From an uncultured Opitutales bacterium (GTDB taxonomy: Bacteria > Verrucomicrobiota > Verrucomicrobiia > Opitutales > Intestinicryptomonadaceae), in the NCBI GenBank assembly GCA_944389175.1, contig CALXLK010000001.1, positions 186,001 through 250,000 of the forward strand: a DNA stretch of 64,000 nt, in the 5' to 3' direction. The notes beneath the pieces are model-generated. The model did no database searches and was not told where the DNA came from. It was given only the letters and a program-made list of their open reading frames with translations. Below, piece after piece: positions 23,734-43,115 of this stretch. The first letter of the stretch is position 1. Each line of letters begins with the position of its first letter. The position numbers and the translations under genes were made by a program.

Positions 23734-23913
23734 GTAATTCAATATTTAAGATTATGCCGACATATTAAATTTGGCCGGCCGGCATGCATTAATTGCTCCT
23801 ATTAACTCCGAGGTGCAATATGGATTAAAAGCCATAAATAGAATGCTTGACAAGCATAAGAAAATTTTTTGTTCTGTTCGGGTTGAAATCTTCCAGAAAG
23901 GAGTCCCATAAAG

Positions 23914-24168
23914 ATGAATGTTGTCGTTAAGAAAAAACGCGCGGTGATGATGGAATACGTCATTATAGCCGTATTGATAGCCGCTGCGGTTGTTGTCGCG
24001 GTTATGATGCTCGGCAAGAATGTCTCATCCGAGATGAACGTCGCAACCCGCTCCATGAGCGATGCTAAAGCCGCAGTAAGCGCGCAGAAGGACATCAAGA
24101 CCCAGGCGGAAAAAGACGTTAAGAGCGCCGAAGAGCACCGTAAGGGCATGCACAATTACGACCAATAG
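23914..24168 (+). CDS. flp: Flp-type Tad pilin
   Basis: This 84-residue pilin has a short basic leader (MNVVVKKKR), then AVMMEYVIIAVLIAAAVVVA, the Flp pattern of four residues, Glu-Tyr and a hydrophobic helix. The family normally has Gly at -1; here it is Arg. The C-terminal half is Lys/Ala-rich and helical (DIKTQAEKDVKSAEEHRKG). It has an excellent AAAGGAG site about 14 bp before the ATG. A strong branched hairpin with T run follows and probably uncouples high pilin expression from the downstream assembly genes. This is the main fibre subunit candidate. Confidence 0.85.
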   Translation: MNVVVKKKRAVMMEYVIIAVLIAAAVVVAVMMLGKNVSSEMNVATRSMSDAKAAVSAQKDIKTQAEKDVKSAEEHRKGMHNYDQ

Positions 24169-24233
24169 GATCGGGTTGTCTGCCTATATTGCCCGTTTGG
24201 GGTGTGAAAGAGAATTTTAATCAACAGTATCGA

Positions 24234-24270
24234 AACGGGATAGCCGCATTGTGCGGGAATCCCGTTTTTT
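24234..24270 (+). terminator. terminator/attenuator between flp and prepilin peptidase
   Basis: Outer stem AACGGGA / TCCCGTT encloses an inner stem CCGCA / TGCGG and ends in a T run. It stops 10 bp before the next start codon. Partial readthrough would give high pilin and low assembly-gene expression. Confidence 0.75.
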
Positions 24271-24279
24271 ATTACGGAT

Positions 24280-24825
24280 ATGGAATTGTTGGTCCTTGTA
24301 AAATTTATTTTGGCCACTCCATGGCTGATATATCTTGGGGTGCGCGACTATCGTACCCGGCAGCTTCCGAATCTTTTTACTCTCGGAGGGGCTGCCGTTA
24401 TGCTTGTGATTGCATTCGGGGCAGATTTCCAATACGGGTTGAATTCTCTGATAGCAGGCGGCCTTTGCGCGCTGTTTTTGCTGTTGCCTTTTTTCCTGCG
24501 CGCCGCGGGAGCGGGAGATGTAAAGATGTTATTTGCCTCCGGAATAATAGCCGGGCCAGGCAATGTCTTAAACCTTATACTTTTAATATCATTTGCGGGG
24601 CTTATATTGGCGCTTGTTATGCTTGTATTAAAAGCGGTTGATTCTGCCCGACTTAAGCATTACCTGCGCTGCATGTTCGATTTCCGCTACGACAGGAAAG
24701 CCGGAAGGGCGGCTCTTCCACCGCCCGAGGCGGAGGCGTGCAGAGTGCCTTTCGGCGTGGCGATATCTTGCGGATTATTTATAAACTTGTCTTTGCAGGT
24801 ATTGGCCGTATACTTCGCGCAATAA
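24280..24825 (+). CDS. tadV: Flp prepilin peptidase (TadV/CpaA)
   Basis: This 181-residue polytopic membrane protease of the A24 aspartyl family removes pilin leaders. The first catalytic Asp lies in VRDYRTRQLPNLF and the second in AAGAGDVKMLFA, the GxGD motif of the family. Hydrophobic segments alternate with short loops as in TadV/CpaA. It lacks the N-methylation domain of PilD, as expected for Tad systems. The C-terminus adds a charged stretch (CMFDFRYDRKAGRAALPPPE) before a last membrane segment. It lies in the plus-strand Tad operon, directly after the pilin attenuator. Confidence 0.9.
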   Translation: MELLVLVKFILATPWLIYLGVRDYRTRQLPNLFTLGGAAVMLVIAFGADFQYGLNSLIAGGLCALFLLLPFFLRAAGAGDVKMLFASGIIAGPGNVLNLILLISFAGLILALVMLVLKAVDSARLKHYLRCMFDFRYDRKAGRAALPPPEAEACRVPFGVAISCGLFINLSLQVLAVYFAQ

Positions 24826-24838
24826 TGCATTTTGAGAT

Positions 24839-25504
24839 ATGAAGAGGTTGGCAAAATCAAACGACGGCGCAATATTGTTGGAGTTTGTCTTGTGCTTTCC
24901 AATACTTGTGGTGCTGTTTTTGTTCGCGGTGCAGTTTTCCTACATAATGATAGCCTGGCAGGTTGTGCATTATTCGGCCTATATGGGGGCTCGCTCCGCC
25001 ATGACGGAGAATGTCATAAAAAGAAAGGGCAAGGCGGAAAAAGTTGTAAAGCGCATACTTGCGGTCGTGTCGGCGTCTCCTTCAGATTCAAAAGAGTCAA
25101 AAGACAGGGCTAAAGACGAATTTTGCAAGCTCGACGGTTGGGGTTGGCTTCCGAATACAAAATATCTCGACCAGCAGGTTGATGTGGACATTTCCATGAC
25201 AAATCTCGATCCGCGCGGCGTAATATGCACTGTCAAGTTCAAGGCGTTTTTGACTGTTCCGGTTGCGGGGCGCCTAATAAGCTTCTTTGCAAAAGAGGAT
25301 AAATCCGAGGAGGAGAAAAAATGGCAGGATTTGCTCGACAACCAGGCCTACGCGTTAAATCCGGCGCTTATAGAATATTCCAATGAAATTGAGCTGGACT
25401 CGGGCGAGAAGGAGAAGCTTAAAATACCGTATATAACTTTAACATCATCAAGCGCGGTGGCAATCCCGTATTCAACTTTAAAATATCCCATTGCTCTGGA
25501 ATGA
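24839..25504 (+). CDS. tadE: TadE-like pseudopilin
   Basis: This 221-residue protein has an N-terminal NDG-AILLEF cleavage motif (Gly at -1, Glu-Phe at +5/+6) followed by VLCFPILVVLFLFAVQFSYI, typical of TadE minor pilins. The rest is a periplasmic domain including QVVHYSAYMGARSA. The start follows tadV by 13 bp, and the stop overlaps the next gene (ATGA). Confidence 0.85.
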   Translation: MKRLAKSNDGAILLEFVLCFPILVVLFLFAVQFSYIMIAWQVVHYSAYMGARSAMTENVIKRKGKAEKVVKRILAVVSASPSDSKESKDRAKDEFCKLDGWGWLPNTKYLDQQVDVDISMTNLDPRGVICTVKFKAFLTVPVAGRLISFFAKEDKSEEEKKWQDLLDNQAYALNPALIEYSNEIELDSGEKEKLKIPYITLTSSSAVAIPYSTLKYPIALE

Positions 25505-27219
25505 AGGCTCCGACGAATATTTTTGGCGTGTTTTTAGGGCGTTGCGGTTTGCTTTGCCGCGGTTCCGACGGGGCTGCCCTTGCCATAACCCTGGCTTTTA
25601 TGCTTCCGGTGAGCATACTGTTCATAGGAATTTACGGGGTGGGGGAAGTTGTCAGGAACAAGATAGAACTTCAAAATGCCGCCGATGCCGCCGCTTATTC
25701 TGCGGCGGTTGTCCAGGCGGATTATCTCAGTCGCATGGCAACCGTCAACAAGGCCATGGCATGGACTTATGTCGACTTGCAGCGGCGCTCTTTGGACGCG
25801 GCTATGGATTTATTTTGTGCGTACGTCTTGGAGCAGTTTAACAAGGATATGAAAAACTGCCAGACGCGCAACAGGCCGTGCCACATGCATGCTCCGGGGG
25901 TAAACTACAATTGCGGAACCGATATTGCCGTTAGCGATATCGCCTTGGAGCTTCTCGGTTCCGGATTGGGCATTCCGGCGGTTGCGGAGAAATTTAACGG
26001 TCAGGATTTTTTAGGCAGGATGCTTCTCTCCCAGCTTGTGCATATTAGCATAGCCAACGTTAGGGGCAAAGGTTCCTTGGCAAATATGCCCAAAGTTTAC
26101 AAGTACAGTTATTCCATCATAAAGATGACGAAGAAACTTAAAGACCTGCACTCCGAATATCCTAAGAAAATAAAGCAGACTGCAAGGGAGGTCGCCGTTG
26201 CCAACATGATGGAATGCAAGGACGATTACATCATAAATGTCACGACCGGAAACGAGAATTTAAGCTTCTTCTTTATGGTTGGCGGCGAGGATAGCGAGAA
26301 GGCTTTTATATCTTTTGCGGATCCCACCTTGAAAGATTTTTCTCCAAAGAGCGTCTTTGGGCCGGGCACCGACGATTGGATAGTCCGTAAGGGAAATATA
26401 GGCTTTTGGCGGGTGTACAAACAGACAGAAACCCATCTGCTTGCAAAGTGGGATTGGTTTTGGACAAGGTGGGTGCATGTTCAGTTATTTGACGTTCCTT
26501 TACATCTTCCCCCTATCGCTTCGGGTGGCGGATACGGCAGGGGGCATCCGGTGTACCATGGCTACGATAGCATCTTTAAAGTGATAAAGCAGAACCTGCC
26601 AATAGGTCTTGCCGTTATGCCGGCGGAGCCTATAACTCTGACGCCGGAATTTTTTGGCAAATCGGGCTCTATAACGGTTGCCATAGCGAGAAAAACGCCG
26701 AATCCGCTTTCGGCTTTTACGCCGTCGGGGCGGTCGATGACGGCGCCGGGGATTCTTTCGGCATTCAATGTCAGCGCCGCGGGGGGAAACAGGCCGGAGT
26801 ATATGTGCGCAATAGCGTCGGCGCGGGCGGCGTATAAGCAGTACGATTCCGACAAGAAAAAGAAGCTCAATAGCTCCGACTACACCGTTGGATATGTCAA
26901 GGCCGACGGCGAAAAGACCTGGAATTTGGTGGAGACGGATTGGGATGCCGTCTTTCTTCCGGTAAAGCATGCTTGGGATTTGTGCGCCGGGGTATCCATA
27001 GCCCAGACCTTTGCCCCGGACCCTCTTTCCGGGGGAAATATTCTCAAGACGGTGATGCTCGACAAGAAAAACTGGACGGACAAGGACGGCAAAAAAGTGG
27101 AAGAGAAAAACCTGCCTGATTGGGAGAACTTGAAAGCTCCCGGAGGCCTTGTGAAAGACGAGAACTCCAAGGACGGCAAGCTTAATTGGGAGAAGCTAAG
27201 CGCGTATTTGGGGCACTGA
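25501..27219 (+). CDS. tadG: TadG-like putative minor pilin / Flp pilus-assembly protein
   Basis: This 572-residue protein has the TadG-type N-terminus: SDGAALAITLAFMLPVSILF as membrane segment, then NKIELQNAADAAAYSAAVV, the diagnostic AADAAAxSAA stretch. The large C-terminal region is periplasmic and without a von Willebrand A domain that I can recognise. It contains two Cys pairs (MKNCQTRNRPCHMH, NYNCG). TadG is thought to anchor or tip the pilus. Start and stop overlap the neighbours (ATGA; TGATG), so it is translationally coupled within the operon. Confidence 0.78.
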   Translation: MKAPTNIFGVFLGRCGLLCRGSDGAALAITLAFMLPVSILFIGIYGVGEVVRNKIELQNAADAAAYSAAVVQADYLSRMATVNKAMAWTYVDLQRRSLDAAMDLFCAYVLEQFNKDMKNCQTRNRPCHMHAPGVNYNCGTDIAVSDIALELLGSGLGIPAVAEKFNGQDFLGRMLLSQLVHISIANVRGKGSLANMPKVYKYSYSIIKMTKKLKDLHSEYPKKIKQTAREVAVANMMECKDDYIINVTTGNENLSFFFMVGGEDSEKAFISFADPTLKDFSPKSVFGPGTDDWIVRKGNIGFWRVYKQTETHLLAKWDWFWTRWVHVQLFDVPLHLPPIASGGGYGRGHPVYHGYDSIFKVIKQNLPIGLAVMPAEPITLTPEFFGKSGSITVAIARKTPNPLSAFTPSGRSMTAPGILSAFNVSAAGGNRPEYMCAIASARAAYKQYDSDKKKKLNSSDYTVGYVKADGEKTWNLVETDWDAVFLPVKHAWDLCAGVSIAQTFAPDPLSGGNILKTVMLDKKNWTDKDGKKVEEKNLPDWENLKAPGGLVKDENSKDGKLNWEKLSAYLGH

Positions 27220-27917
27220 TGGATATGCAAAAATTATTGACCAGATTGTTCCGTTGCTCAGGGGGATCCGTCCTGATGGAGTTTGTCATGGTCTTGCCCG
27301 TATATCTGGCCACATTGGGAGGCATAATATGGATGGGGGAGAAATCGCTCGACGCAATAAGCTTGAGGTCGGCGAACCACTGGAGCGCATTTATGGCCGG
27401 CAACAGATTTTCCGTGCGCACTCCGGCAACCCTCGGGCTGACGAAACTTTTTCCGCGCGCCACCGCAGTGTACGACTCCACAAAGCGCTCTCTTGTCGAC
27501 GAGCATTCCTATTTGCAGTTCATAGGCTCCAAGGTCGGCATACTTCAGTCTACCCCGGAAATCTTGGGCAATTGGATAAATGCGCCGTATACGGTCGTCG
27601 GAGAGAACGCATCCTCGTCCATCATACCGGATATAACAATGACTTCGTCCCGCTACGGCAATGATTATACAATGGCTATAATAATGCGTTCAAAGGGGTC
27701 TTCATCAGCCAAGAGGCACTGGCATTCGAGCCTTGTTGCAGACAAGGACCTCTGGGAATTTGATGGCAAGGAGGATTCATATCCAAAAAAATGGGAGCTT
27801 GAAATTCTCAAAGACGCAAAACATACCGACGACACCAAAACTTTTGAGGACGAGCCTAAAAAAATAGATTTCTACGAGCGGTACGAAGAATACAAAAAGT
27901 GGAGCGTATCAAAATGA
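27219..27917 (+). CDS. second TadE-like pseudopilin
   Basis: This 232-residue protein starts at the ATG overlapping the tadG stop. The leader LFRCSGG is followed by SVLMEFVMVLPVYLATLGGI, with Gly at -1 and Glu-Phe at +5/+6, as in TadE. The periplasmic part is unique in sequence. A TadE/TadE/TadG set is expected for minor pilins that prime or cap the fibre. The stop overlaps the next start (ATGA). Confidence 0.78.
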   Translation: MDMQKLLTRLFRCSGGSVLMEFVMVLPVYLATLGGIIWMGEKSLDAISLRSANHWSAFMAGNRFSVRTPATLGLTKLFPRATAVYDSTKRSLVDEHSYLQFIGSKVGILQSTPEILGNWINAPYTVVGENASSSIIPDITMTSSRYGNDYTMAIIMRSKGSSSAKRHWHSSLVADKDLWEFDGKEDSYPKKWELEILKDAKHTDDTKTFEDEPKKIDFYERYEEYKKWSVSK

Positions 27918-28405
27918 CGGGGGCTTTCGCCAAGGTTTTTTTCATTACATTTGCCCTCGGAATGGCCGCTGTTTTCTTGATGAACGGGTATGTTATGCAT
28001 GGGGAAAGCTCAGACTCTGCGCGTGCTACCAACGGCGTTGTGAAAAGCCTTGGCAAGAATATAGCCCCCGACAATGCCTATGAGCTTCTCGGGCCTTTGA
28101 AGCTTCCCGTATCAGTTGTGTCTTCTCAGCAGGGAGTAAAAGGCGGGTGGGAATTTTCCGGATTCCTCAATGCAAACTTTGTATCCGCACGCGCCCAGCT
28201 CGACTCGTGGATGCAAAACCAGGGCTGGATTCCGGAGAATAAAATAAGCCTGGACGAAAGCATAGAGCCGAGAGTAATATTGACATTCAGCCGCGGCTCT
28301 CAAGAAATGACTATGTTTCTGTGGAAGATCTCCACAGACTCCACCGGTTTTGCGTACAAGCGCGAGTATATAAACAAAGAGGATGATTCAGATGAACTCA
28401 AATAG
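27914..28405 (+). CDS. single-pass membrane protein of Tad operon, unknown
   Basis: This 163-residue protein has one N-terminal membrane segment (FAKVFFITFALGMAAVFLMN). A periplasmic domain of about 130 residues follows, including FVSARAQLDSWMQNQGW and a beta-rich end VILTFSRGSQEMTMFLWK. I do not recognise a family. It is coupled by overlap to the upstream pseudopilin and to the ATPase downstream, so it is probably part of the inner-membrane platform. Confidence 0.65.
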   Translation: MTGAFAKVFFITFALGMAAVFLMNGYVMHGESSDSARATNGVVKSLGKNIAPDNAYELLGPLKLPVSVVSSQQGVKGGWEFSGFLNANFVSARAQLDSWMQNQGWIPENKISLDESIEPRVILTFSRGSQEMTMFLWKISTDSTGFAYKREYINKEDDSDELK

Positions 28406-29465
28406 CGATTTTCTCGTTTTATTTCTGGCTCCGGTAAGGGAGTTTCTCGAGGACGATAGCGTCTCCGAGATTCTCATAAACGGCGCGTCTCAGATATACG
28501 TCGAACGCCGCGGTAAGCTTGAGCTTACATCGGCCAAATTTGCGGGCGAAGCCCAACTTATGGCCGCCGCCGCAAACATAGCAAAATCAGTCGACAGGAT
28601 TCTCGACGAGCGCCACCCGGATCTGGACGCGAGGCTTCCCGACGGTTCGCGCGTGCATGCGACCATACCGCCCATAAGCCGCTGCGGAACTATTATATCC
28701 ATACGCAAGTTCAAGAAGGATATTCTTACCTTGGATAAGCTCGAATCTTTCTCAAGCATTCCGCATGAGGGCGCGTTGCTGTTGAACGCAATAGTGAAAC
28801 TGCGCAAGAATACGATAGTATCGGGGGGGACGTCGTCGGGAAAGACCTCCGTGCTGAACGCCATGAGCGGCCTCATTCCAGAAAAAGACCGCATACTTGT
28901 TCTTGAGGATGCCAGCGAATTGCAGCTCCAGCAAAAGCACTGCGTATATTTTGAAACGAGAAAGCCCGATAAGAACGGCGAGGGAGAATTTTCCATAAGA
29001 GACCTCGTCATAGCCTCGCTAAGGCTTCGCCCGGACAGGCTTGTCATTGGCGAGATACGCGGCAAGGAGGCTCTGGATTTGCTTCAGGCTATGAATACGG
29101 GGCATTCGGGGTCTATGTCCACAATACACGCAAACTCTCCGATAGACGCTCTCAGGCGCATGGAGACTTGCGCGCTCATGAGTGGAGTTGAGCTTCCGCT
29201 AAGCGCGGTTAGGATGCAGGTTGCCTCCGCTATAAATTGCCTCGTGCATACAATGCGCCTTCCGGACGGCTCGAGAAAAGTTGTAGACATATCGGAAGTC
29301 CTGCCGTTGGAAAACGGGGATTACAAGACCAGCAAGCTTATGGAGTGGAAGACAAAATCCATCTCGCCAGACGGTACCGTATGCGGGGCTTTCCGCCTTT
29401 GCAATAGGCCCTCGTTTGCGGGCGAGGCGCAGATCATGGGAATAGAGCTTCCTCAATATTCATAG
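28392..29465 (+). CDS. CpaF/TadA-type secretion ATPase (second copy in locus)
   Basis: This 357-residue hexameric secretion ATPase has an N-terminal domain VSEILINGASQIYVERRGK. Walker A is GGTSSGKTSVLN at about 145-155. The Asp-box region is ILVLEDASELQL, Walker B is RLVIGEIRGKEALDLLQAMN, and the His box is GSMSTIHANSP. It is shorter than the FHA-fused TadA on the other strand and has no N-terminal FHA. ATG 28392 is preferred because AGAGG lies 9 bp upstream; an ATG at 28383 has no spacing. Two motor ATPases in one Tad locus suggest separate extension and retraction or specialised functions. Confidence 0.9.
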   Translation: MNSNSDFLVLFLAPVREFLEDDSVSEILINGASQIYVERRGKLELTSAKFAGEAQLMAAAANIAKSVDRILDERHPDLDARLPDGSRVHATIPPISRCGTIISIRKFKKDILTLDKLESFSSIPHEGALLLNAIVKLRKNTIVSGGTSSGKTSVLNAMSGLIPEKDRILVLEDASELQLQQKHCVYFETRKPDKNGEGEFSIRDLVIASLRLRPDRLVIGEIRGKEALDLLQAMNTGHSGSMSTIHANSPIDALRRMETCALMSGVELPLSAVRMQVASAINCLVHTMRLPDGSRKVVDISEVLPLENGDYKTSKLMEWKTKSISPDGTVCGAFRLCNRPSFAGEAQIMGIELPQYS

Positions 29466-29470
29466 AGCCT

Positions 29471-30298
29471 ATGCCGTTTTTATTTTCGGGAGAGATTCTT
29501 GCAAAATATACTCTTGTAAGGCCGGTCAAATGCTCTAAAGACGCGGAAGTGTGGATAGCATATTGCCAAGACGGCAGATATTGCATACTGAAAGTCGCCC
29601 GCGGCGCCAGTGCGGCGGCAAAACGCCTCATCGCGGCTGCGAGGCTCGTCGGAAATTTAAACTGTGCCCATATCGCCCGCGTGTTCGATTGCGGAATGTC
29701 CGAATCTGGATTTGCCTATGCTGCGTTGGAATACGCGGGGGGCGGAAGCATTGAATCGAGGCTTTCTAAATTCGGCAGATTGACTCTCGGGCAGACCGTA
29801 GAGATGCTCTACGGTGTTCTCGAAGCCCTTTGCCTCCTGCACAAAGCCGGCGTTGTCCACCGCGATTTAAAGCCCGCAAACATATGGATATCCGATAATG
29901 GAAGCGCCATTGTCGGAGACTTCGGCATCGCAAAACTTCCAAATTTTCCCGATGAGGACAATTCCGTATTCGGGTCGGCGCCGTATATGTCTCCGGAGCA
30001 GGCCAAAAATTCCGCAAAAGTTGACGGCAGAAGCGATATTTTCAGTCTCGGGCTTGTGGCATATGAATCCCTTACGGGGCATAGCAGATATTCCGGGAAA
30101 AACTATGTGGAAATATTAAAACAGATTCTCTCCGATAGGAGATCTATATTTCCCGAGCTTGAGCCCATAGCGTCGGCTCCGCTTGCATCGCTTTTAGATT
30201 CCATGGCTTCTGCTTCTTTGGAGGGGCGCCCGGCGAGCGCGGGGGAAGTCATATCAAAGATGGATTCCATCGGGCTTCCGCGCGAACCCATCTTATGA
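29471..30298 (+). CDS. soluble Hanks-type Ser/Thr protein kinase
   Basis: This 275-residue kinase domain has no membrane segment and no sensor domain. The ATP-anchoring Lys (about 41) is in CILKVA. The catalytic loop HRDLKPANIW (about 129), DFGIAK (about 151), SAPYMSPEQA and GRSDIFSLGLVAYESLTG are all intact. The glycine-rich loop is degenerate (VKCSKDAEVWIA, no Gly) and the usual helix-C Glu is not obvious. It is the last gene of the plus-strand Tad operon, 5 bp after the ATPase, and overlaps the opposite operon end by 6 bp. Likely substrates are threonines on Tad proteins read by the FHA domains encoded opposite. Confidence 0.88.
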   Translation: MPFLFSGEILAKYTLVRPVKCSKDAEVWIAYCQDGRYCILKVARGASAAAKRLIAAARLVGNLNCAHIARVFDCGMSESGFAYAALEYAGGGSIESRLSKFGRLTLGQTVEMLYGVLEALCLLHKAGVVHRDLKPANIWISDNGSAIVGDFGIAKLPNFPDEDNSVFGSAPYMSPEQAKNSAKVDGRSDIFSLGLVAYESLTGHSRYSGKNYVEILKQILSDRRSIFPELEPIASAPLASLLDSMASASLEGRPASAGEVISKMDSIGLPREPIL

Positions 30299-31165
30299 CG
30301 GAATTTCTCCTGACTGTCTTTTTGAGAATTTAGTTTTGTACATTTTCCATCTGTGGGAACTTTTTGACATGTCTTCTATCCACTGCTTTGGATCGCGCGA
30401 TTTTGCCAGAAGGCACATCTCATTGTCGTCCATTCTAAACATGATGGGCAGGGGGTCGTATCCTGATTTGCATAGCTTGTCGCGCACTCTGCGGAGCCTC
30501 GCCCTAAGGGTTATTTCCCTAAATACGAGCGCCGCGGCCGGAGCGAGCGCAAGCATTCCAAGTAGCGGCATTCCCAAAATGAAAAGCACTGCGCATGCTT
30601 CAAATGAAACAATAGCCAAAGCCGGAATCTGCCACCTCCTGAAGAAATTTCCAAATATCCTTCTAAATCCAGAGCTTTCAACGCGTCTTGGAAACCACTC
30701 TTCGTACGCCGAATCGGGGTAGGGCATCTTTGCCGCGTGGCACATCTCGTGCGCAAGAATTGCAGCCGAGCGCAAAGTTCCTGCTTTCTTTAAAAATATG
30801 GCGGGGAGGAGTCCGTCTATCTCATATAAAATTCCCTCGCTAAAAATTCCTGTATGCTTTTTTGAAACCCAAGCGGGCATCCAGTCGGGGCGGAATTTGT
30901 AAAATTTCCATACTATGTCCGCCGCGGCGGAGCGCAGATTTTCTTCTATGGGATAGGCGCCTGCATATATGTCTTTAAAGCGCGAACTTCCTCTTCGTAT
31001 TTGGCCTATCTCTCCTATGAGCTTTTCAATGCGCTGTCTAAAATGCACTAGAGATTCATTTGGGCCTATGAGAATTCCGCATGAATCCAGCCCGGCCAGA
31101 GCGTCTGCAATCTCTTGTTCATTGTCCGCGGCCAATCCTTGAATGTGGCAAGAGAGGCTCTTCAT
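30293..31165 (-). CDS. membrane zinc metallopeptidase-like protein of Tad locus
   Basis: This 290-residue protein has a gluzincin-type zinc motif, AAILAHEMCHAAKMP (HExxH), with a nearby EEW that could supply the third ligand. Two adjacent hydrophobic segments (IPALAIVSFEACAVLFILG and PLLGMLALAPAAALVF) anchor it. The region before the motif is soluble and helical. The start ATG overlaps the stop of the small Flp-like pilin (ATGA), so they are translationally coupled. A role in maturing or turning over pilins is inferred; a member of the M48/M56-like peptidases is the closest guess. Confidence 0.6.
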   Translation of the reverse strand: MKSLSCHIQGLAADNEQEIADALAGLDSCGILIGPNESLVHFRQRIEKLIGEIGQIRRGSSRFKDIYAGAYPIEENLRSAAADIVWKFYKFRPDWMPAWVSKKHTGIFSEGILYEIDGLLPAIFLKKAGTLRSAAILAHEMCHAAKMPYPDSAYEEWFPRRVESSGFRRIFGNFFRRWQIPALAIVSFEACAVLFILGMPLLGMLALAPAAALVFREITLRARLRRVRDKLCKSGYDPLPIMFRMDDNEMCLLAKSRDPKQWIEDMSKSSHRWKMYKTKFSKRQSGEIPS

Positions 31166-31377
31166 GGAATTGGCAGCGATATTACTGTTACAATGCGCTG
31201 GTAAAAATGCACTATTTGTTCCCCTATGGACCCGAAATCTCCCCCGAGCCAAGACGAGCTGTATATCAACGCCGAAGCGCCAAATACAAGCGGCAAGATT
31301 GAGCACAGCAAGAGCGCGTATTCCAAAAGCACGGCGCGCCTTTTCAATATTCTGAATCTCTTAAAAGTGCTTTTCAT
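31162..31377 (-). CDS. second Flp-like small pilin
   Basis: This 71-residue protein has a basic leader (FKRFRILKRR) then AVLLEYALLLCSILPLVFGA, repeating the Arg-Ala-Val-x-x-Glu-Tyr pattern of the main Flp pilin. It has a shorter, non-Lys-rich C-terminus. Hydrophobic helix length and Glu at +5 support a Flp or pseudopilin. It is coupled by ATGA overlap to the metallopeptidase gene. The upstream gap to the FHA gene (31378-31506) holds no clear terminator. Confidence 0.7.
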   Translation of the reverse strand: MKSTFKRFRILKRRAVLLEYALLLCSILPLVFGASALIYSSSWLGGDFGSIGEQIVHFYQRIVTVISLPIP

Positions 31378-31506
31378 CTGCGGTTGTTTATTTTGCTTAT
31401 GCGTGCTGCGCGGGTTGTTGCAATCTTAACAATGGCATGAAAGATACATATTCGAAACAGAATTTCCAGCTTTATGCTTCGGATGTTTTTTATAGAATAT
31501 TTGGTA

Positions 31507-33897: not shown

Positions 33898-35369
33898 TCC
33901 ACGCTCCAATCGTTTTTCATGATGCGTATGTAGCGGTAGTCGTTGAGAGGCTCAAATCTCTCGAGACATTCGTTCAATATGCGTGTCATCTCCGCGTTGT
34001 TTGCCCTGTTGCGTGCGTCTGAGTATTCCAGGCATTTCCTAGAATACCATATCTTCTGCTTCGCGCGAAATTTCTCAAGAAGCGATGTCGCCGTCTCTAT
34101 GAGCGGCTTTTCGTCTTTTACATACGCCTCCCTAAACAGATTTCTCAAAAGCAGATCTATGTCTTCCCACGATGCAACCTCAAGATTCTTGTTAAGCTCT
34201 CTGTTTAACATCTTAAGCATTTTTGTTGCGTTTTCATTTATCGGCTTTTCCGGAATTTCCCAGTGCCTGAGCACGGTTGAATTTGCCACCGATATGCAGT
34301 CGTAATCTCTAACCAAGCCTTCCGAACGCCAGTATTGCGCTGTGGGCACCTCTCTTAACAGGACGATTTCCTTGTCCAAAAACCTCATGTAGCAGGCAAC
34401 ACCCCGCCAAGACATATTTCCAAGCTTTCGGCTGTAATCTATCTTGATATACGGATACCCATTGTCGCCTTTATTGAAGAAGTCTTCTTGCGAGGGCGAG
34501 GAAAACCTCATCATGCCCGACTTTTCCATCCTCTCCGTCCATTCATTGAAGCTTTTGCGCGTCGTCTTGCCGTAGCCGTTTTTCACAGCCTCAGACTTAA
34601 AGACTATGTGGAATGGAACGTCCAGGTTTTCTCCCGCCGCAGTCAGCACCTCAAAACTTCCATCGCCGCTTTCCTTTACCATTGAGGGGGAATTTGGGTA
34701 ATATATAAGAAATTTTCCGTTGTTTCCTAAGTCTATCCTGTATTCCCCGTCGTCGTAATTGCCCGATTTCTCCCCCGGCCATGTCACGGGATTTTCAATT
34801 CGGCTTTCGGAAATGTAAAACGCAAGGGCTAAAATTGCGGCGGATATAAGCACTCCAAAAAATAGCGATAGCTTTCTTTGGCGAGCCATAGATTTATTTG
34901 CGTTGCGCAAGTCAGACAGCTCCTCAGCCGATGCGTATCTCGTATTCGAGACATTCTCCGGCTGAACTTCGCTTTGGCCCGCGTAGTCTTGCGGCAGTAT
35001 CGTAGCCGCTCCGGTATCTGGCGGCACATTGGGCATATCGCCTTTAGGCGGTGTCTGGTAATGCCTTTCAACTATGAAGGACAAATTCTTCCCAAGCCGA
35101 ACATCGTCTCCGGGTTCGAGCATTTTATCCTCCCCATTGCCCAGGGCCATGTTTCTAACCCAGACATCCCCGTCTCCGGAGTTGTGCAGCAATATGCCAG
35201 AACCCGTCTGCGGCAGAAGAGTTGCATGCTCTGCGGCTATCCCGGAATCCGAGCTGCGTATGTCGGAATCCATTGAAGAGCCTATGACGAGTCCGGAGTC
35301 TTTCACCGCGAAAGATCTCCCTTTCAAGTCTCCGTTTATAAATCTAATTCTGTATCGCGACTGCTGCAT
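33894..35369 (-). CDS. FHA-domain membrane protein of Tad locus
   Basis: This 491-residue protein has an N-terminal FHA-like domain (about 1-95: GLVIGSSMDSDIRSSDSGIA followed by AEHATLL), with the usual Arg and Ser-x-x-His core altered. A Pro-rich linker comes next, then one membrane segment (LSLFFGVLISAAILALAFYI, about 170-190) and a periplasmic domain of roughly 300 residues. That domain contains FHIVFKSEAVKNGYG and a helical C-terminal half. It starts 5 bp after tadC and overlaps the next FHA gene (ATGA). It has no recognised catalytic motif. It may be a structural or signalling component of the inner-membrane complex. Confidence 0.72.
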   Translation of the reverse strand: MQQSRYRIRFINGDLKGRSFAVKDSGLVIGSSMDSDIRSSDSGIAAEHATLLPQTGSGILLHNSGDGDVWVRNMALGNGEDKMLEPGDDVRLGKNLSFIVERHYQTPPKGDMPNVPPDTGAATILPQDYAGQSEVQPENVSNTRYASAEELSDLRNANKSMARQRKLSLFFGVLISAAILALAFYISESRIENPVTWPGEKSGNYDDGEYRIDLGNNGKFLIYYPNSPSMVKESGDGSFEVLTAAGENLDVPFHIVFKSEAVKNGYGKTTRKSFNEWTERMEKSGMMRFSSPSQEDFFNKGDNGYPYIKIDYSRKLGNMSWRGVACYMRFLDKEIVLLREVPTAQYWRSEGLVRDYDCISVANSTVLRHWEIPEKPINENATKMLKMLNRELNKNLEVASWEDIDLLLRNLFREAYVKDEKPLIETATSLLEKFRAKQKIWYSRKCLEYSDARNRANNAEMTRILNECLERFEPLNDYRYIRIMKNDWSVE

Positions 35370-35374
35370 GTTTT

Positions 35375-36271
35375 TTAAAATAGAGACACTCCCGCCTCTT
35401 TCATCCTTATATATATGGGAGTTAATATTATTATGAATACCGCCGGCATTATGAATATTGCCATCGGCAGCAGCATCAGCGACGGCGCGCGCTGCGCTTT
35501 GCACTCGGCCAAGGCAAAACGCGCCTTGCGCATTTCCTCACCCTGAATTTCCATTGTGTCCGTCAGCGGAGAACCGAGTTCCGTTCCAAGCTCTATTGCC
35601 GATACAAAAGAGGTGAACTCTTTTATTTGTATCCTATCAGCGACATTTCTCAATGCCTTAAGCCTTCCCACACCGAGCTCCATCTCGTGGAGCATCCTTA
35701 GAAATTCGTCTCTGAGCGGGTTTTGCTTCGTCAGATTTGCATAGAAGCGCACTGCCGCCATAAAGTCCAGGCCGCCCCTCATTGCCGAAGCTATCAAGTC
35801 TATGGAGTAGGGCAGGCTTCTTATTATGTTTGTGCGTTTTTCCTCTATTATATTATCTATTCCTGTCTTTGGCATAAACCAGCCCACAAAGCATCCCAAA
35901 AATGCGGCAACGACCGTGTAGGCGCCTTCGTCAGACAGCGCAAACGCCGCTCCGGAAAATAAAATGGTTAGCGCCGCAGCAAGAAACAACTGGGAGCAGT
36001 ATATCTTCTTCGCCGAGGTCTTCAGGCCGGAAAACTCTATTTTTTTCTCGTAATCAGCCGCCTTTGCCGGAGATATTCTGCAAAGAAGCTCCCCAATGCC
36101 AATTTTATCCATGACGTCTGCAAATGGCTCGGCAACCTGCAGCATAAAAGGCAAGTCCGACTCCGACGTTAAGGACTTTGACACCCTTATGGATTTGTCC
36201 GACATACAATAAAGTATTGTCGGTATTACAACCGCCATGAACGTGAGTATATATACTATGTATTCTTCCAT
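35375..36271 (-). CDS. tadC: TadC inner-membrane platform protein
   Basis: This 298-residue member of the T2SF family has paired membrane segments: IVYILTFMAVVIPTILY, LAAALTILFSGAAFAL and APSLMLLPMAIFIMPAVFI. The cytoplasmic helical domain shows SLPYSIDLIASAMRGGLDFM, FVSAIELGTELGSPLTDTM and QGEEMRKARFALAECKAQRA, typical of TadC. It forms the platform with TadB that couples the ATPase to the fibre. ATG 36271 lies 5 bp after the tadB stop. Confidence 0.88.
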   Translation of the reverse strand: MEEYIVYILTFMAVVIPTILYCMSDKSIRVSKSLTSESDLPFMLQVAEPFADVMDKIGIGELLCRISPAKAADYEKKIEFSGLKTSAKKIYCSQLFLAAALTILFSGAAFALSDEGAYTVVAAFLGCFVGWFMPKTGIDNIIEEKRTNIIRSLPYSIDLIASAMRGGLDFMAAVRFYANLTKQNPLRDEFLRMLHEMELGVGRLKALRNVADRIQIKEFTSFVSAIELGTELGSPLTDTMEIQGEEMRKARFALAECKAQRAPSLMLLPMAIFIMPAVFIIILTPIYIRMKEAGVSLF

Positions 36272-36276
36272 GGCTT

Positions 36277-37176
36277 TTACACTTTTATGTCCACTATTTT
36301 TCTTATTACAAGGTATCCTATTATCTCTAAGGTAAGCATTGCCGATATCGCACACCAGCCAATCATGCTTGTAAGAAGCGGCAGCATCAGCTCGCTATTT
36401 ACCAGCAGCAGCAGCACAAACGCCGCAAGCGGCGCCAGCGACATTGCAAGAGCCTCAAATCTTCCCTGAGCGGTAAGGGCGGCAAGCTTTTGGTGAAACT
36501 CTGTCCGCGCACGTATGGTCTGGGATATCTTTTGTATGACATCCGCGAGGCTGCCTCCGGATTGGGTCGTCAGCTTTATTGATACTATCAGCAGCTGAAG
36601 GTCCTCGCAAGGAATTCTGTCGTACATGCGTTGCAGCGATTCCGACAATTCCAAACCGAGGCGGTATTCCCTTATTACAATCATGAGTTCCTCTTTCATC
36701 GGTCCGTCGCATCTTCTTGCAAACGCCTCTATGGCCTGCGGGAGAGCCTGGCCGGAACGCAGCGCGTTTGTAAGCCCCAAAGACAGATCCAATATTCCCG
36801 CCTCAAACTCTTTTGCGCGCGCCTTTACTTTGCGTAAAAAATATATTTTAGGGGCTTGAAACGCCGCCGCAAAAGCGACTGCCGCGCACAGCAAAAGCGC
36901 GAGCGGATTATAAACCTGGCAGAACAACAGCGCTCCCGTAAGAATTCCCGCAGCGAGAATTCCCGCCGATATCTGCAACTGGCGCAGTCTGATGTTGTCT
37001 ATAAAACGGCCTATTCCGTTTTCCGACGAGAACCTCTCCCTGGTTCTCTGTCCCTTTTCCATGCGCTCCGTGCTGAAGGATTGTATAAACCGTATGGATA
37101 TATATATGAATAGCGACACCGCAAGCATCACCAGCAGATATATTCCAATTCGTTGCATTACGGGCGTGTAATCCAT
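36277..37176 (-). CDS. tadB: TadB inner-membrane platform protein
   Basis: This 299-residue T2SF-family protein has a first membrane segment GIYLLVMLAVSLFIYISI, a central pair (LQISAGILAAGILTGALLF, PLALLLCAAVAFAAAF) and a C-terminal pair. The signature cytoplasmic domain reads ILDLSLGLTNALRSGQALPQ, EYRLGLELSESLQRM and TQSGGSLADVIQKISQTIRA. It follows tadA by 8 bp and precedes tadC by 5 bp, the usual tadABC order. Confidence 0.9.
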   Translation of the reverse strand: MDYTPVMQRIGIYLLVMLAVSLFIYISIRFIQSFSTERMEKGQRTRERFSSENGIGRFIDNIRLRQLQISAGILAAGILTGALLFCQVYNPLALLLCAAVAFAAAFQAPKIYFLRKVKARAKEFEAGILDLSLGLTNALRSGQALPQAIEAFARRCDGPMKEELMIVIREYRLGLELSESLQRMYDRIPCEDLQLLIVSIKLTTQSGGSLADVIQKISQTIRARTEFHQKLAALTAQGRFEALAMSLAPLAAFVLLLLVNSELMLPLLTSMIGWCAISAMLTLEIIGYLVIRKIVDIKV

Positions 37177-37184
37177 ATATTTCC

Positions 37185-38861
37185 TTAAGTCTCCGGAACG
37201 AATACCGCCATGTCGAGTTTCAGGTCTCCCGACTGCCTTAATTCCTCAATAAAGCGCGGAATGTTTCCCGTGGCCGTGTGGTGTCCGACAACCTTGAAGT
37301 TCTCGTCGTACCCTTCGTGTTCGTAGGTGAATATGTCCTGAAGGAGTATGGTGTTGTTCTCCCTTCCGCACACCTCGGTTATCTTGACTATTTTTCTTGA
37401 GCCGTCAGGCATGCGCGTTTGCTGCACTATTATGTCTATTGCCGAGGATATCTGTTCGCGTATCGCCGACGACGGAAGCTCAAAGCCAGCCATCATCACC
37501 ATATTTTCCAGTCTCGAGAGCGCGTCTCTGGGATTGTTCGCATGGCAGGTTGTCATTGAGCCGTCGTGCCCGGTATTCATCGCCTGAAGCATGTCCAGCG
37601 CCTCCGCGCCGCGGCATTCGCCCACTATGATTCTATCCGGCCGCATGCGCAGGGTATTTATTACGAGGTCTCTTATGGTTATGCGGCCCTGGCCCTCTAT
37701 GTTTGCCGGCCTCGCCTCAAGCCTGCAGAGGTTCTCGTGCGAGAGCTTCAATTCGGCCGAATCCTCCACCGTAATTATTCTTTCCCTTTCCGGAATAAAC
37801 TGGGACAATATATTAAGCAGTGTTGTCTTTCCCGATCCCGTTCCGCCCGATACCAATATATTCTGCCTCGATCTCACCGCCTCCTTCAGAAATTGGGCCA
37901 TTTGCCTATTTAGGCTGCCAAATTTTATCAGGTCGTCATCGGTAAGTTTTTTGGATGCAAATTTTCTTATAGTCAGAAGAGATCCGTCAAGCGACAATGG
38001 CGGAATTACCGCGTTTACTCTCGAGCCGTCGTCGAGCCTTGCGTCAACCATGGGAGACGCCGCATCTATGTGCCTGCCCAAAGGCTCAACTATGCGCTGT
38101 ATTATCGATTGCAAATGGCTTTCCCCATTGAACCTTACCGCAGTTCTATACTGTATGCCCTTGCTCTCGACAAATACATTGTCGGGCCCGTTTATCATGA
38201 TTTCGGATATATCGCCTGCTCTTAGCAAGGGCGACAAAGGCCCAAGCCCTATCAGATCGTCCATCAGAACCGCCCTAAACTTGTCCAGAGATATGCCCGC
38301 CGGAATTTGGTGGCGTATCTCTCTGAGAGCCTGGTCGAGGGCGTCTTCCACCTTTGGCCTCATTGCTTCTGTGGAAATCTTGTTCGGAGAGTCTCCCACT
38401 ATGTTGAGAATTTCCAGCACCCTCGACTGCACCGTTGTCGCAAGCTCCAACATATTGTCGGAATACATCTCCGTGGAGGTTTGAACATCGTACATGGGCA
38501 TTTTGCCTTCCGTGTTTACGGGAACGCTCTTTGCGGGGGCGGGTTTTTCGCCCTCCAGATTCGGCTCCGACACCGACAACGAAATCTCAAAACTGCCAAT
38601 GTTTACTATGTCCGACGGCAATAACCTTCTCCTGATGTTTATCTTTTCTCCATTTACCCATGTACCGGCAGTGCTGCCTGCGTCGTTTATAAAACATTCT
38701 CCGCCCGACTCGCTTATTTCGGCGTGGCGCCTGGATACGGTCATGTCGCTTAGGACTATATCCGACGTCTCCGCCCGTCCGATGACAAGTACCCCGTTTG
38801 CAGGCAGCTCAACGCGGCGCAGCTTTCCGTCTTTTGATCTAATGTTTAGGCGCATTACCAT
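37185..38861 (-). CDS. tadA: FHA-fused TadA/CpaF pilus ATPase
   Basis: This 558-residue protein joins an N-terminal FHA domain to a Tad motor ATPase. The FHA (about 20-90) keeps the canonical core VIGRAETSDIVLSDMTVSRR-HAE; the later GSTAGTWVNG has Ala where many have Asn. The ATPase part has ISEIMINGPDNVFVESKG, Walker A GGTGSGKTTLLN near residue 340, VEDSAELKL, Walker B RIIVGECRGAEALDMLQAMN and MTTCHANNP. An FHA on the motor suggests recruitment or control by phosphothreonine. ATG 38861 and ATG 38855 (overlapping the secretin stop) are both possible. Confidence 0.92.
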   Translation of the reverse strand: MVMRLNIRSKDGKLRRVELPANGVLVIGRAETSDIVLSDMTVSRRHAEISESGGECFINDAGSTAGTWVNGEKINIRRRLLPSDIVNIGSFEISLSVSEPNLEGEKPAPAKSVPVNTEGKMPMYDVQTSTEMYSDNMLELATTVQSRVLEILNIVGDSPNKISTEAMRPKVEDALDQALREIRHQIPAGISLDKFRAVLMDDLIGLGPLSPLLRAGDISEIMINGPDNVFVESKGIQYRTAVRFNGESHLQSIIQRIVEPLGRHIDAASPMVDARLDDGSRVNAVIPPLSLDGSLLTIRKFASKKLTDDDLIKFGSLNRQMAQFLKEAVRSRQNILVSGGTGSGKTTLLNILSQFIPERERIITVEDSAELKLSHENLCRLEARPANIEGQGRITIRDLVINTLRMRPDRIIVGECRGAEALDMLQAMNTGHDGSMTTCHANNPRDALSRLENMVMMAGFELPSSAIREQISSAIDIIVQQTRMPDGSRKIVKITEVCGRENNTILLQDIFTYEHEGYDENFKVVGHHTATGNIPRFIEELRQSGDLKLDMAVFVPET

Positions 38862-40459
38862 GTAAACATCTTTTCGCCGGTTGACTTATTTGCGTTTGTT
38901 CTCAGTTCTTCAGATTTGCCGTTCGTACTCTTGGAAACTTCGTCTTCCACTCCGGCCGTCTCTGCCGACGGTTTAGAAGTCATCTTTACTCCGTTCTTTG
39001 CAATCTGCGGCGATACGAGGATCAACAGCTGAAGCTCCTCCACGCTTTCCTCCTCGTATCCAAATATGGATCCCAAAAGAGGCACATGCCTTAAAAAGGC
39101 ATAGCCGGAATCGCTCTTTGTGTGGGTTAATTCCCTTTGCCCGGATATAATCGCCGTCTGGTCTAAATTGCAGATAATTTCGCTCTTTGTTCGGGTTTTT
39201 CTCTGGAGGTAGTCGTCGTCCTGCTTTATCGGGGCAAGGCTCTTTTCTACCTCAAGAATCAGGCGCACGCGGTTTGAATTTATCAGCCCCCCGCTGACTT
39301 TTATCGTAAGCCCAAAGTTTATCTCTTTTAGGTCGGCAACATCGCGCCCGTGAATTTCAACATTCAATGTTCCGCCGTTTTCGTATGTCGCTTCCGGCAC
39401 CCCCTTTGAATTGCTCGTAAGAGTCAGGTGCCCACCGTCTCTAAAGTCGGAAACTCCATTCGAGCCAAAGAACTGTATTGCCCCGTCTATTCCGGTATTC
39501 ATATACGCAAGGCCTCCGACTCCGGATGCCTTAGGCGCATCTCCGCCGAGGCTTGGGGGAAGCTCTCCGGCAAGCGCCTTAAACCAGCCTTGTAGATCCA
39601 AAGATATAACGGTTCCGTTTGCGTCGGAATTTCCCATCCTCTCAAGCTGGGAACGCGTCACCCCGACTATTACAACATTTACGTCAAGCTGGGTGTCGTC
39701 GACTTCCAGATTGTAGACAACCTCCGTCGGATTTGGCCCCGCCGACAGCCATTTCTGTGATGAAACAATCTTTCTTATATCGGAAATGTCGTTGTCGCAT
39801 AGCATTCTTCCGTAGAATGTGAGAATTCCCGATGATATTTTCATTCCAAGAATTCCCGCCTCTTTAGGAATTCCGTTTTCGACCTTATATCCCGCGTCTT
39901 CGAGCTGCTTTTTCAGCGAGTCGAACATCTCCGGGCCCGGTTTGTAAACAACGTAGTTTCTATAAGAGTTACTGTATTTATCCAGTACGTTTTTAAAAGC
40001 CAAATATCTTGAATACTTTGATATTTCCCCCCTGAGGGTTATCGCATTTTGAGACATTTCCGCGGTTACTTCGGAGAAGTCGGATATATCTTTGCACAAA
40101 TCCCTGTATAGCGACGCCATGGAGTTTGTAACCCTAACCTTAAATACTTTGGAGACCACGCTCGACGTCAAAGTTATATCCGCATAACCCGGTTCCACTC
40201 CCTGTATTTCCAAAAAGCGCCCCTTGCTGCCAAGAATCTTTACATTTTTTGCAGAAGAGCGGTAGCTTTCTATTTCAAAAGGAACTTCCAACCTCTTTGT
40301 TTCGTCTTGGGCAATCGTTACGCTTTCCGTTGGAAGAGAAGAGATTATAGACAAAGAGGTCGTTGTTCCAGAGGCATTTTGGGCCTGGGCGGCAAGGCAC
40401 AGAGCCGATACCGCTATCAGACATAAGCACAGGTTTAAGGATCGCTTCATGGGAAACAT
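38855..40459 (-). CDS. cpaC: Tad secretin (CpaC/RcpA)
   Basis: This 534-residue outer-membrane pore protein has a signal peptide (LNLCLCLIAVSALCLAAQA). Its N-terminal RcpA/BON-like region includes ITLRGEISKYSRYLAFKNVL. The secretin core shows LDVNVVIVGVTRSQLERMGN, TQTAIISGQ-like DQTAIISGQRE, and the signature FLRHVPLLGSIFGYEEESVE followed by ELQLLILVSPQI. The Ser/Thr-rich C-terminal tail is about 45 residues. It starts immediately after the cpaB stop (TAAATG). An in-frame ATG at 40450 is an equally good start. Confidence 0.9.
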   Translation of the reverse strand: MFPMKRSLNLCLCLIAVSALCLAAQAQNASGTTTSLSIISSLPTESVTIAQDETKRLEVPFEIESYRSSAKNVKILGSKGRFLEIQGVEPGYADITLTSSVVSKVFKVRVTNSMASLYRDLCKDISDFSEVTAEMSQNAITLRGEISKYSRYLAFKNVLDKYSNSYRNYVVYKPGPEMFDSLKKQLEDAGYKVENGIPKEAGILGMKISSGILTFYGRMLCDNDISDIRKIVSSQKWLSAGPNPTEVVYNLEVDDTQLDVNVVIVGVTRSQLERMGNSDANGTVISLDLQGWFKALAGELPPSLGGDAPKASGVGGLAYMNTGIDGAIQFFGSNGVSDFRDGGHLTLTSNSKGVPEATYENGGTLNVEIHGRDVADLKEINFGLTIKVSGGLINSNRVRLILEVEKSLAPIKQDDDYLQRKTRTKSEIICNLDQTAIISGQRELTHTKSDSGYAFLRHVPLLGSIFGYEEESVEELQLLILVSPQIAKNGVKMTSKPSAETAGVEDEVSKSTNGKSEELRTNANKSTGEKMFTW

Positions 40460-41278
40460 TTATCTTGCGTTTTCTGTTGGTGTGGGCGATAGCTCTGCAG
40501 ATTGCAGGCCTTTGCGAATTTCCTCAAAAGTTTTCTGGTTTACCACTCCAATCTCTTTTCTGTTTAGGGCGGAGGAGTCGTTTCTTTTGCGGAGCACCGG
40601 ATACAGTTCCGCCTCTCTTTGCGCCGCAATTACTATCATGGCCTGTTGGGGCGGCAAAGACACAAATATCGTTCCACTAGAGCTTCCGGGTTCCCTGAAA
40701 GAACCGTTGCTGTTTGCTATTCCGAGCACTCTAACGCAAGGCAGAAGGACAGAGGTTTCCCTCCTCTCCGATTCCTGCAAGGCCTGGGGCATTACGGCAT
40801 CGCCCGGGTTCCCCGAGGCGCCGCTTGACGGCGGCTCTGATTTTCTTGTGACGTAGGTTGATATAATTCCTATTTCATCATTTGGTTTAAGCATTTTAAT
40901 CAGAGCCGGATCCGAGAATGTAATGGGGATAGTCCACTCACCTTCTTTGGAGCAGTCTCCAAGAGAGATCTTAAGCTGAATATCGTTAATTAAGATGTAA
41001 TCGTTTCTTGCTATGGGATGCTGCACGCGTTGGCCGTAAATCATTGACACGTTTTCCCAGAGCAATGCGCCGTGTGGCAGGACAGATTTTGGAACGTCGC
41101 GGTATGTGAGAGCGCCTTCGGTTAGCTCCTCGTCGGCGTCGAGGTCTCTGGCGGCGGTTATTATTGATACGGTTTGTTCATCCTTAGTTTCTTTTCTATC
41201 GAATAGTGTTTTACTTACGACAAAAACTGCCGCCAGTCCAAGTATGACAGACACAACCAAAGGTATTACATTTTTCAT
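40460..41278 (-). CDS. cpaB: CpaB/RcpC-like Flp pilus assembly protein
   Basis: This 272-residue protein has an N-terminal membrane anchor (VIPLVVSVILGLAAVFVVS) and a SAF-like domain (VSIITAARDLDADEELTEGA, VPKSVLPHG, YGQRVQHPIARNDYILINDI). Both are characteristic of CpaB/RcpC, a periplasmic factor acting with the secretin. ATG 41278 gives the expected short cytoplasmic N-terminus. It is the first gene of the minus-strand Tad operon; the promoter must lie in the A+T-rich region to the right. Confidence 0.85.
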   Translation of the reverse strand: MKNVIPLVVSVILGLAAVFVVSKTLFDRKETKDEQTVSIITAARDLDADEELTEGALTYRDVPKSVLPHGALLWENVSMIYGQRVQHPIARNDYILINDIQLKISLGDCSKEGEWTIPITFSDPALIKMLKPNDEIGIISTYVTRKSEPPSSGASGNPGDAVMPQALQESERRETSVLLPCVRVLGIANSNGSFREPGSSSGTIFVSLPPQQAMIVIAAQREAELYPVLRKRNDSSALNRKEIGVVNQKTFEEIRKGLQSAELSPTPTENAR

Positions 41279-41690
41279 CGCCGATTTTCTCTTTAAATCC
41301 ACTGAATTTGTCAAATCTTTTAATCCGCATAATGAGTGCAATATACAATGTTTTTTAGGCGTGCTTGATTAAGATTTATATCAGCATAAATAAATGCGGA
41401 TTTTTGCCTAAAGACAATAGATACTAAAGGCCATAATTAGCAGAAGTCCCGTGTTGATTATGTAGATAAGTAGGGCCCCAAAAGTTTAAAATACGCGCGA
41501 GGCAGAATATATATTGTAACTTAACATCTTATAAATGCAGTATTGAAACTCTGCGGTTTAGTTTTTAAGAGAAGCAACTGCTAAAGATTGAAGGATATCA
41601 AAGATATTTTTTTATTAAAAAATATTATGGTTAAGGAATTAGCACACATAAAAAAGATAAAGAATCCTAGGAAAGTTTGGGTAAATTAGG
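41279..41690. other. A+T-rich intergenic region upstream of cpaB
   Basis: About 410 bp without a supported gene. Composition is markedly A+T-rich compared with flanking core genes. It should hold the promoter of the minus-strand Tad operon and marks the left edge of the decayed integrase. No hairpin with T run stands out. Confidence 0.5.
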
Positions 41691-42522: not shown

Positions 42523-42594
42523 GCCCCTGTAGTTCAACGGATAGAACGAGCGTTTCCTAAACGCCAAATCGAGGTTCGATTCCTCGTGGGGGCG
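42523..42594 (+). tRNA. tRNA-Arg (anticodon CCT), copy 1
   Basis: A 72-nt cloverleaf. The acceptor is GCCCCTG/TGGGGGC with two G-T pairs, the D arm GTTC...GAAC, the anticodon loop TTCCTAA gives anticodon CCT, and the T arm is CGAGG-TTCGATT-CCTCG. The discriminator base is G and CCA is not encoded. It is identical over its whole length to the copy at 63865-63936. Confidence 0.95.
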
Positions 42595-43115
42595 CGGGCG
42601 GGTTTCCAATGATTGCGTGTAGGCTATAATTATTGTCTGTCGGACTGCGCGCGTTGCGGTAATTTTTACAGTTTGTGCGTGAAGTTTATGTTCGTTGTAG
42701 GAAGCGCACAAAAAAAACATGCCGGCTTTTCCCAAAATATTTTCCTGCTGCACCATTATTGCGCCACGGCCGCACGTATATGAAACAAACCAAATAGTAC
42801 TATTTAAGCCGACTATTTTTTCGGAAATTCCCTTATCATAGGCAAGAAAACTTTTTTGAACTCAGCTGTCTCAGATACACTCTATTCTTCCCATAGGTGT
42901 TGGTGGGTTTTTAAGTTTAGATTCCCATCCTCCATTCTTGCTCTTCTCCTATTCCCCGAACTCACACACTCATACATGCACGCTCGCTTTCCGCGGCACG
43001 CCACAAACCTTCTCGCCGCCAATGTAAGTGTGTGGTTGTTAAATTGTTGACTTTTTGAATGTCTGGTGTAGGACTGGGAACTCAGTTCTTGTCTAAACCC
43101 TAACTTCTTATTTAT
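42595..43115. other. 521-bp intergenic region
   Basis: No supported gene. Open frames crossing from the tRNA are artefacts of tRNA overlap. It probably contains the promoter of the M14 peptidase gene. No repeat or terminator is convincing. Confidence 0.5.

Follow-up and report, generated by a model that had tools for sequence, protein, structure and literature searches.

A Tad pilus locus with two TadA motors, FHA proteins and a Ser/Thr kinase in an uncultured Opitutales bacterium, and a candidate phosphothreonine switch

The window, i.e., the whole stretch of 64,000 nucleotides that was analyzed, was found to contain a Tad locus organized as two convergent operons that abut at 30293–30298, where the stop codon of the HExxH gene overlaps that of the kinase gene (Table 1). 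By ORF and Pfam analysis, all Tad genes named in the initial annotation and the converging operons were located where they had been placed. The same was true of the soluble Hanks-type kinase, lacking transmembrane (TM) segments, that ends the plus operon, and of the FHA-TadA fusion (TadA1) and the pair of membrane FHA proteins in the minus operon, of which FHA1x has a single FHA domain and FHA2x has two. That gene list had overlooked an intact second motor, TadA2, directly before the kinase gene, as well as a HExxH membrane protein. The platform proteins TadB and TadC and the secretin, each encoded once, were present, as were RcpC, TadV, and TadE/G; TadZ, TadD, and RcpB were not recognized among the genes of the locus. 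The pilin fell under the curated cut-off of Flp_Fap, and its position and sequence pattern fit Flp; Arg, not Gly, precedes its predicted prepilin cleavage site. The HExxH protein, seen only in Tad loci of class A (see below), contains an invariant HExxH motif and an invariant downstream Glu, and its AlphaFold model was confident (pLDDT 87) but gave no hit in the PDB below E 1.

Table 1. Features of the Tad locus in the window, with positions numbered from the first nucleotide of the window.
Feature	Position	Strand	Evidence
Whole Tad block	23713..41360	.	91–92% nt identity with G002 (second Opitutales genus); unrelated flanks
Flp-type pilin, 84 aa, prepilin site KKR/AVMMEY (Arg at -1)	23914..24168	+	Flp_Fap E 4e-4
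TadV/CpaA prepilin peptidase (Peptidase_A24)	24280..24825	+	PF01478 8e-14
TadE	24839..25504	+	PF07811 5e-10
TadG	25501..27219	+	PF13400 2.5e-7
TadF/E-like minor pilin	27219..27917	+	PF07811 5e-3 (below cut-off); synteny conserved
Small one-TM protein, conserved between TadF and TadA2	27914..28405	+	Loci of relatives
TadA2, 360 aa, second motor without FHA	28383..29465	+	Walker A/B and His box intact; T2SSE
Hanks-type Ser/Thr kinase, 275 aa, no TM	29471..30298	+	PF00069 2e-31
HExxH membrane protein, putative metallopeptidase	30293..31165	-	Invariant HExxH and downstream Glu
FHA2x: two FHA domains, TM, long periplasmic part	31507..33909	-	FHA domain matches
FHA1x: FHA, disordered linker, TM helix, PsbP-like periplasmic domain	33894..35369	-	Domain match and structure comparison
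FHA1x T143 codon (from Met), TRxA[ST]xxE, candidate phosphosite	34941..34943	-	29/29 in alignment A2
FHA1x T123 codon (from Met), acidic context	35001..35003	-	Conservation alignment-dependent
TadC	35375..36355	-	T2SSF 1e-14
TadB	36277..37176	-	T2SSF 8e-15
TadA1: N-terminal FHA (aa 1–95) and CpaF ATPase	37185..38861	-	FHA 1e-18; T2SSE 6e-65; CpaF structures E 1e-116
TadA1 FHA domain	38598..38789	-	R29, S43, H46 of pThr pocket present
RcpA/CpaC secretin	38855..40459	-	PF00263 5e-13
RcpC/CpaB	40460..41278	-	SAF above cut-off; RcpC 2e-5 (below cut-off)

Relatives of the TadA-FHA fusion were found throughout Lentisphaeria and Kiritimatiellae, and their loci were divided into three classes. Class A has the gene arrangement of the window. 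Class B shares this gene set, with the genes often following one another in a single direction (CpaB, RcpA, TadA1-FHA, TadB, TadC, FHA1x, FHA2x, pilin, TadV, TadE, TadG, TadF, orf168, TadA2, kinase); in a variant the kinase lies ahead of CpaB, and cluster kinases occupy several positions. Several class B clusters also contain a second kinase-like ORF, with HGD for HRD, beside FHA2x or TadA2 (G043/G067/G243/G274; L188-L189, L200-L201, L206-L207, L204-L205). Class C loci encode FHA-TadA, TadB/C, and an FHA protein of weak similarity; in the ten examined, TadA2 was missing and no kinase gene adjoined the cluster. In one of these ten, a kinase lies at a distance of 14 kb.

Among 388 genomes of the phylum, those containing a class A TadA-FHA were exactly those containing a class A kinase (15/15), and these 15 scored 378–449 bits with the kinase profile compared to 211 bits for the next best genome. 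The co-occurrence of kinase and TadA-FHA, which had been put forward as a check in the initial annotation, was thus clearly borne out in this sample. TadA-FHA and kinase were usually 7.5–8.7 kb apart in class A, and a single apparent loss of the kinase (L075) proved to be only apparent, as the gene was found on a separate contig. Over classes A and B together, a kinase was present within 21 kb of TadA in at least 34 of 47 loci, compared to 1/66 class C loci (Fisher p 5e-17). The former count is a lower bound, as it covers the kinases listed and many contigs end nearby, and class C may be undercounted too, the profile having been built from class A kinases. Because a first set of class B loci had been selected by kinase proximity, the class B count rests on a second set chosen mainly by TadA score and contig size, in which a kinase was found in or beside the cluster in 7/10 loci; the other three, in which none was seen, lie close to the end of the stretch or contig. 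A chance neighborhood of kinase and Tad genes was ruled out by the exact co-occurrence and by preservation of the gene set under several gene orders. This two-motor, kinase-bearing Tad subtype is conserved and more general than initially assumed, recurring in gut as well as environmental members of one bacterial branch.

Within the family, the locus was carried by 2/19 genomes: the genome of the window (G000; 2.29 Mb, 92.8% complete) and G002 (contig CALXQW010000028, uncultured Opitutales bacterium). Although the two belong to different genera and share only 55% identity in the housekeeping GTPase Der, their core Tad proteins were 96–97% identical, and the limits of the unit were set by the matching block in G002, beyond which the flanks are unrelated. 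The locus has therefore moved horizontally as a whole unit into this family, and uptake of the block by an Opitutales lineage, with the subtype belonging to the Lentisphaeria/Kiritimatiellae branch, is the best explanation. Contamination is unlikely, as the window lies on a contig of 250 kb or more and an M14 gene in the flank showed 80% identity to a copy from the same genus. No clean empty insertion site was found among flank homologues of G014, G001, and G002, since these share only the M14 gene with the window (that of G014 additionally shares a short stretch near 48.2 kb), and neither a target-site duplication nor an integrase was evident when the ends of the block were inspected by eye. 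The block genes are under purifying selection between the two genera (dN/dS 0.10 for the kinase). All FHA domains found in G000 (four, in three proteins) are encoded at the Tad locus, as are those of G002; kinase genes number two in G000, including the cluster kinase, which is the only one found in G002. In a genome of the same genus that lacks the Tad locus (L033, G008:C17), two kinases and three FHA domains are encoded in a cluster unrelated to it.

Each operon encodes one TadA motor, and Walker A, Walker B, and His box are kept in both, as they are in the TadA2 copies of classes A and B that were listed at full length. TadA2 formed a clade of 28 members (support 0.998) separate from TadA1, and its phylogenetic placement indicates an old, separate motor lineage. 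Two old lineages with intact motifs would also be expected if the motors served two machines, a pilus and a secretion system or second filament on a shared platform, with the kinase acting on general expression or assembly; a Tad-like apparatus with contact-dependent killing is known (PMC8460266). We regard this as improbable, as the locus encodes a single TadB/TadC pair and a single secretin.

In the window kinase, K41, HRD (D132), N137, and D150 are kept and the glycine loop is absent, and alignment to StkP showed that the alpha-C Glu is replaced by A56. The fold and catalytic residues of Pkinase are thus present, K41, HRD, N137, and the DFG Asp being invariant in all 15 class A kinases, and none of these retains a glycine loop or, at the alpha-C position, a conserved Glu. 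The class A kinases formed one clade (support 0.997) on a long branch. Cluster kinases of class B are canonical, with an intact glycine loop, and fell into several clades; a single origin of the cluster kinases was therefore unsupported, and their phylogeny suggests repeated recruitment or replacement of kinases in the same role. Because it belongs to a subclass without glycine loop and alpha-C Glu, the window kinase is of uncertain activity: it could work slowly or atypically, or have no catalytic function. No PP2C_2 phosphatase (PF13672) that could act as its partner was found in G000 (92.8% complete).

The initial annotation regarded all three FHA proteins as phosphothreonine (pThr) readers, which agrees with the pocket residues of TadA1 and was wrong for the other two, since the Arg that contacts pThr is missing from three of the four FHA domains. 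Among homologues with an alignable FHA domain, the Arg of TadA1 (R29) was present in 15/15 class A and 53/53 other sequences (68/68) and the Ser (S43) in 69/69; in the peptide-binding loop, the TadA FHA domain has Ala where Asn is usual. In FHA1x and both domains of FHA2x, the pThr Arg is replaced by S76, H75, and S180 (ORF numbering), and sequence comparison showed TadA1 to contain the only canonical pThr pocket in the window. The second FHA domain of FHA2x has Ser for this Arg in all 15 class A homologues. Outside class A, FHA1x has kept both Arg (34/34) and Ser (35/35); within class A, the first position is Arg, Lys, or Ser and the second is never Ser, and the window copy has lost both. Class A kinase and FHA1x reader have thus decayed together, a pattern in keeping with a functional link between the two, and the phospho-pathway may be reduced in the organism of the window.

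Structure comparison showed FHA1x to contain a true FHA fold (GarA, ArnA, YscD-like) and a PsbP-like periplasmic domain; its cytoplasmic linker is variable in sequence and predicted to be disordered (model residues 103–141). At the end of this juxtamembrane linker, T143 (T141 in alignment A2) is invariant (29/29) within the motif TRxA[ST]xxE, which was also found in 15 of 18 further homologues. No conserved Thr was found in the linker of TadA1 itself. T143 is therefore proposed from its conservation as a specific candidate phosphosite, and as the best one, although it could act as a helix cap instead. T123 was rejected as top site, being weaker than T143: only 18/29 Thr align there when the anchoring motif is left out, although that count is reached by 0/100 shuffles. 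Class B FHA1x linkers contain an extra Thr approximately seven residues before TRxA (ET[IVD]xMxTR), a tandem-Thr pattern that recalls GarA.

The sequences directly show the gene content, the co-occurrence, the conserved TadA1 FHA pocket, the conserved Thr, and the intact ATPase motifs of both motors, whereas phosphorylation, FHA docking, and motor choice are inferred in the following model. The cluster kinase would phosphorylate a Thr in the cytoplasmic linker of FHA1x, most probably T143, and the FHA domain of TadA1 would dock on this mark, which would bring TadA1 to the TadB/TadC platform. TadA2, lacking an FHA domain, would operate independently of the mark, and phosphate would select the motor engaged, and hence extension versus retraction or idling. 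To such a phosphate-dependent choice between TadA1 and TadA2, with the kinase writing on FHA1x, we assign a rough probability of 0.4. A stricter version, in which the two TadA motors are antagonistic and are exchanged by Thr phosphorylation, the kinase marking FHA1x and the FHA-bearing motor docking there, appears unlikely from the sequences at hand. If true, it would represent a PilB/PilT-like division of labor that arose separately in the Tad family and is switched by a kinase-FHA pair.

The loss of the pThr Arg from three of four FHA domains and the missing glycine loop and alpha-C Glu of all class A kinases could also mean that no pThr signalling takes place here. The FHA domains would then be phosphate-independent scaffolds resembling YscD/PscD of type III secretion, and the class A kinase a pseudokinase or nucleotide-dependent clamp holding TadA1 and TadA2 at the platform. 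Consistent with this, the YscD cytoplasmic-domain model matches about equally well as the FHA model, and FHA1x is equally similar to YscD/PscD structures and to GarA/ArnA. The explanation is weakened by the invariant Arg and Ser of the TadA FHA domain, by the canonical class B kinases, and by the catalytic residues kept in 15/15 class A kinases, which a pure pseudokinase would not need, and we consider it somewhat doubtful.

The position of the kinase gene 5 bp behind TadA2 in class A could instead reflect action of the kinase on TadA2 or on pilus subunits rather than on FHA proteins, the FHA-TadA receiving separate input from other cellular kinases. Class C loci, in which FHA-TadA occurs without an adjacent kinase, would agree with this. 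Few outside kinases are available here, however, because G000 has one other kinase gene and none was found in G002, and conservation of both T143 and the TadA FHA pocket extends over classes A and B, making this arrangement quite unlikely.

The simple kinase-FHA reading given initially was supported by the co-occurrence and the TadA1 pocket and not by the three FHA domains without Arg and the degenerate N-lobe of the kinase. In the window subclass, the pathway is partly eroded (kinase N-lobe; FHA1x and FHA2x pockets), which would leave the TadA1 FHA domain as the sole canonical reader. A pThr switch is thus a good hypothesis for the subtype, and a less secure one for the genome of the window.

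In type VI secretion, the PpkA-Fha-PppA pathway is a Thr phosphorylation pathway in which kinase and FHA reader are encoded together with the machine. The pathway is discussed in PMC8460266 and PMC11217815, and the Tad locus resembles it in that a kinase and an FHA reader are encoded alongside a secretion-type machine. The machine is a different one, however, the window kinase has no TM segment and a degenerate N-lobe, and PP2C_2 was not found in G000. In the ArnA/ArnB system, an FHA protein and Ser/Thr phosphorylation control archaellum expression together with kinases (PMC4858521), which likewise ties an FHA protein and a Ser/Thr kinase to a type IV filament (a predicted role here), whereas ArnA/ArnB act on expression and their FHA domain is not fused to a motor. 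T7SSd contains a predicted kinase, TsdD, and an FHA-ATPase, TsdC, in one cluster (PMC11217815); this pairing of kinase and FHA-bearing secretion ATPase is similar and likewise predicted, but machine and ATPase family are unrelated.

The statement in the initial annotation that no characterized Tad system has this design stood for the in-cluster kinase and second motor and fell for the FHA-TadA fusion. In the Kil system of Myxococcus xanthus, KilF is a TadA with an N-terminal FHA domain accompanied by further FHA proteins, and a phospho-cascade was proposed by its authors by analogy with type VI secretion (PMC8460266). Both systems share an FHA domain fused to a TadA/CpaF ATPase (hexameric in Kil) and several more FHA proteins. 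In contrast, Kil is described with a single ATPase, no kinase was reported inside Kil clusters (PMC8460266), and TadG, present here, is missing; Kil serves in contact-dependent killing of prey. TadA1 also corresponds to CpaF architecture class III (FHA, linker, and CpaF ATPase); the survey describing it, mostly betaproteobacterial, is limited to CpaF domains, and neither a kinase nor a second motor nor an FHA partner in the membrane is described there (PMC12019362). With the Tad loci of Caulobacter and Aggregatibacter, the locus shares a probable pilin, TadV, TadE/F/G, RcpA, RcpC, TadA, TadB, and TadC, but TadZ, TadD, and RcpB were not seen at the window locus, and two motors, FHA domains, and a kinase are found here as opposed to one bifunctional motor in Caulobacter (PMC11300603).

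No paper describing a Tad cluster that encodes a kinase, or one that has two TadA motors, was found in the open-access literature. FHA-TadA and the phospho-cascade proposal are already published for Kil, and the in-cluster kinase, the two motors, and the candidate site are new. The published idea lacked a kinase, and this locus offers concrete candidates for writer, reader, and site. In the prevailing view, a single motor drives both extension and retraction of Tad pili; its two-way working and generality were stated to be open (PMC11300603). In this subtype, a kinase and a conserved candidate phosphosite accompany two motors of old lineage whose motifs are intact, and just one of these motors carries a pThr-reading domain; the general question of how the direction of Tad motors is controlled could thereby be reduced to the level of a single residue.

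Further minor features were observed in and around the block. Approximately 110 bp at 31389–31500, in the gap between FHA2x and the HExxH gene, are missing from the otherwise 91% identical locus of G002. Two identical tRNA-Arg(CCT) genes (42523–42595 and 63865–63937) lie 21 kb apart with the housekeeping genes ftsK, lpxC, and der in between, and one of them is located 1.2 kb from the end of the Tad block.
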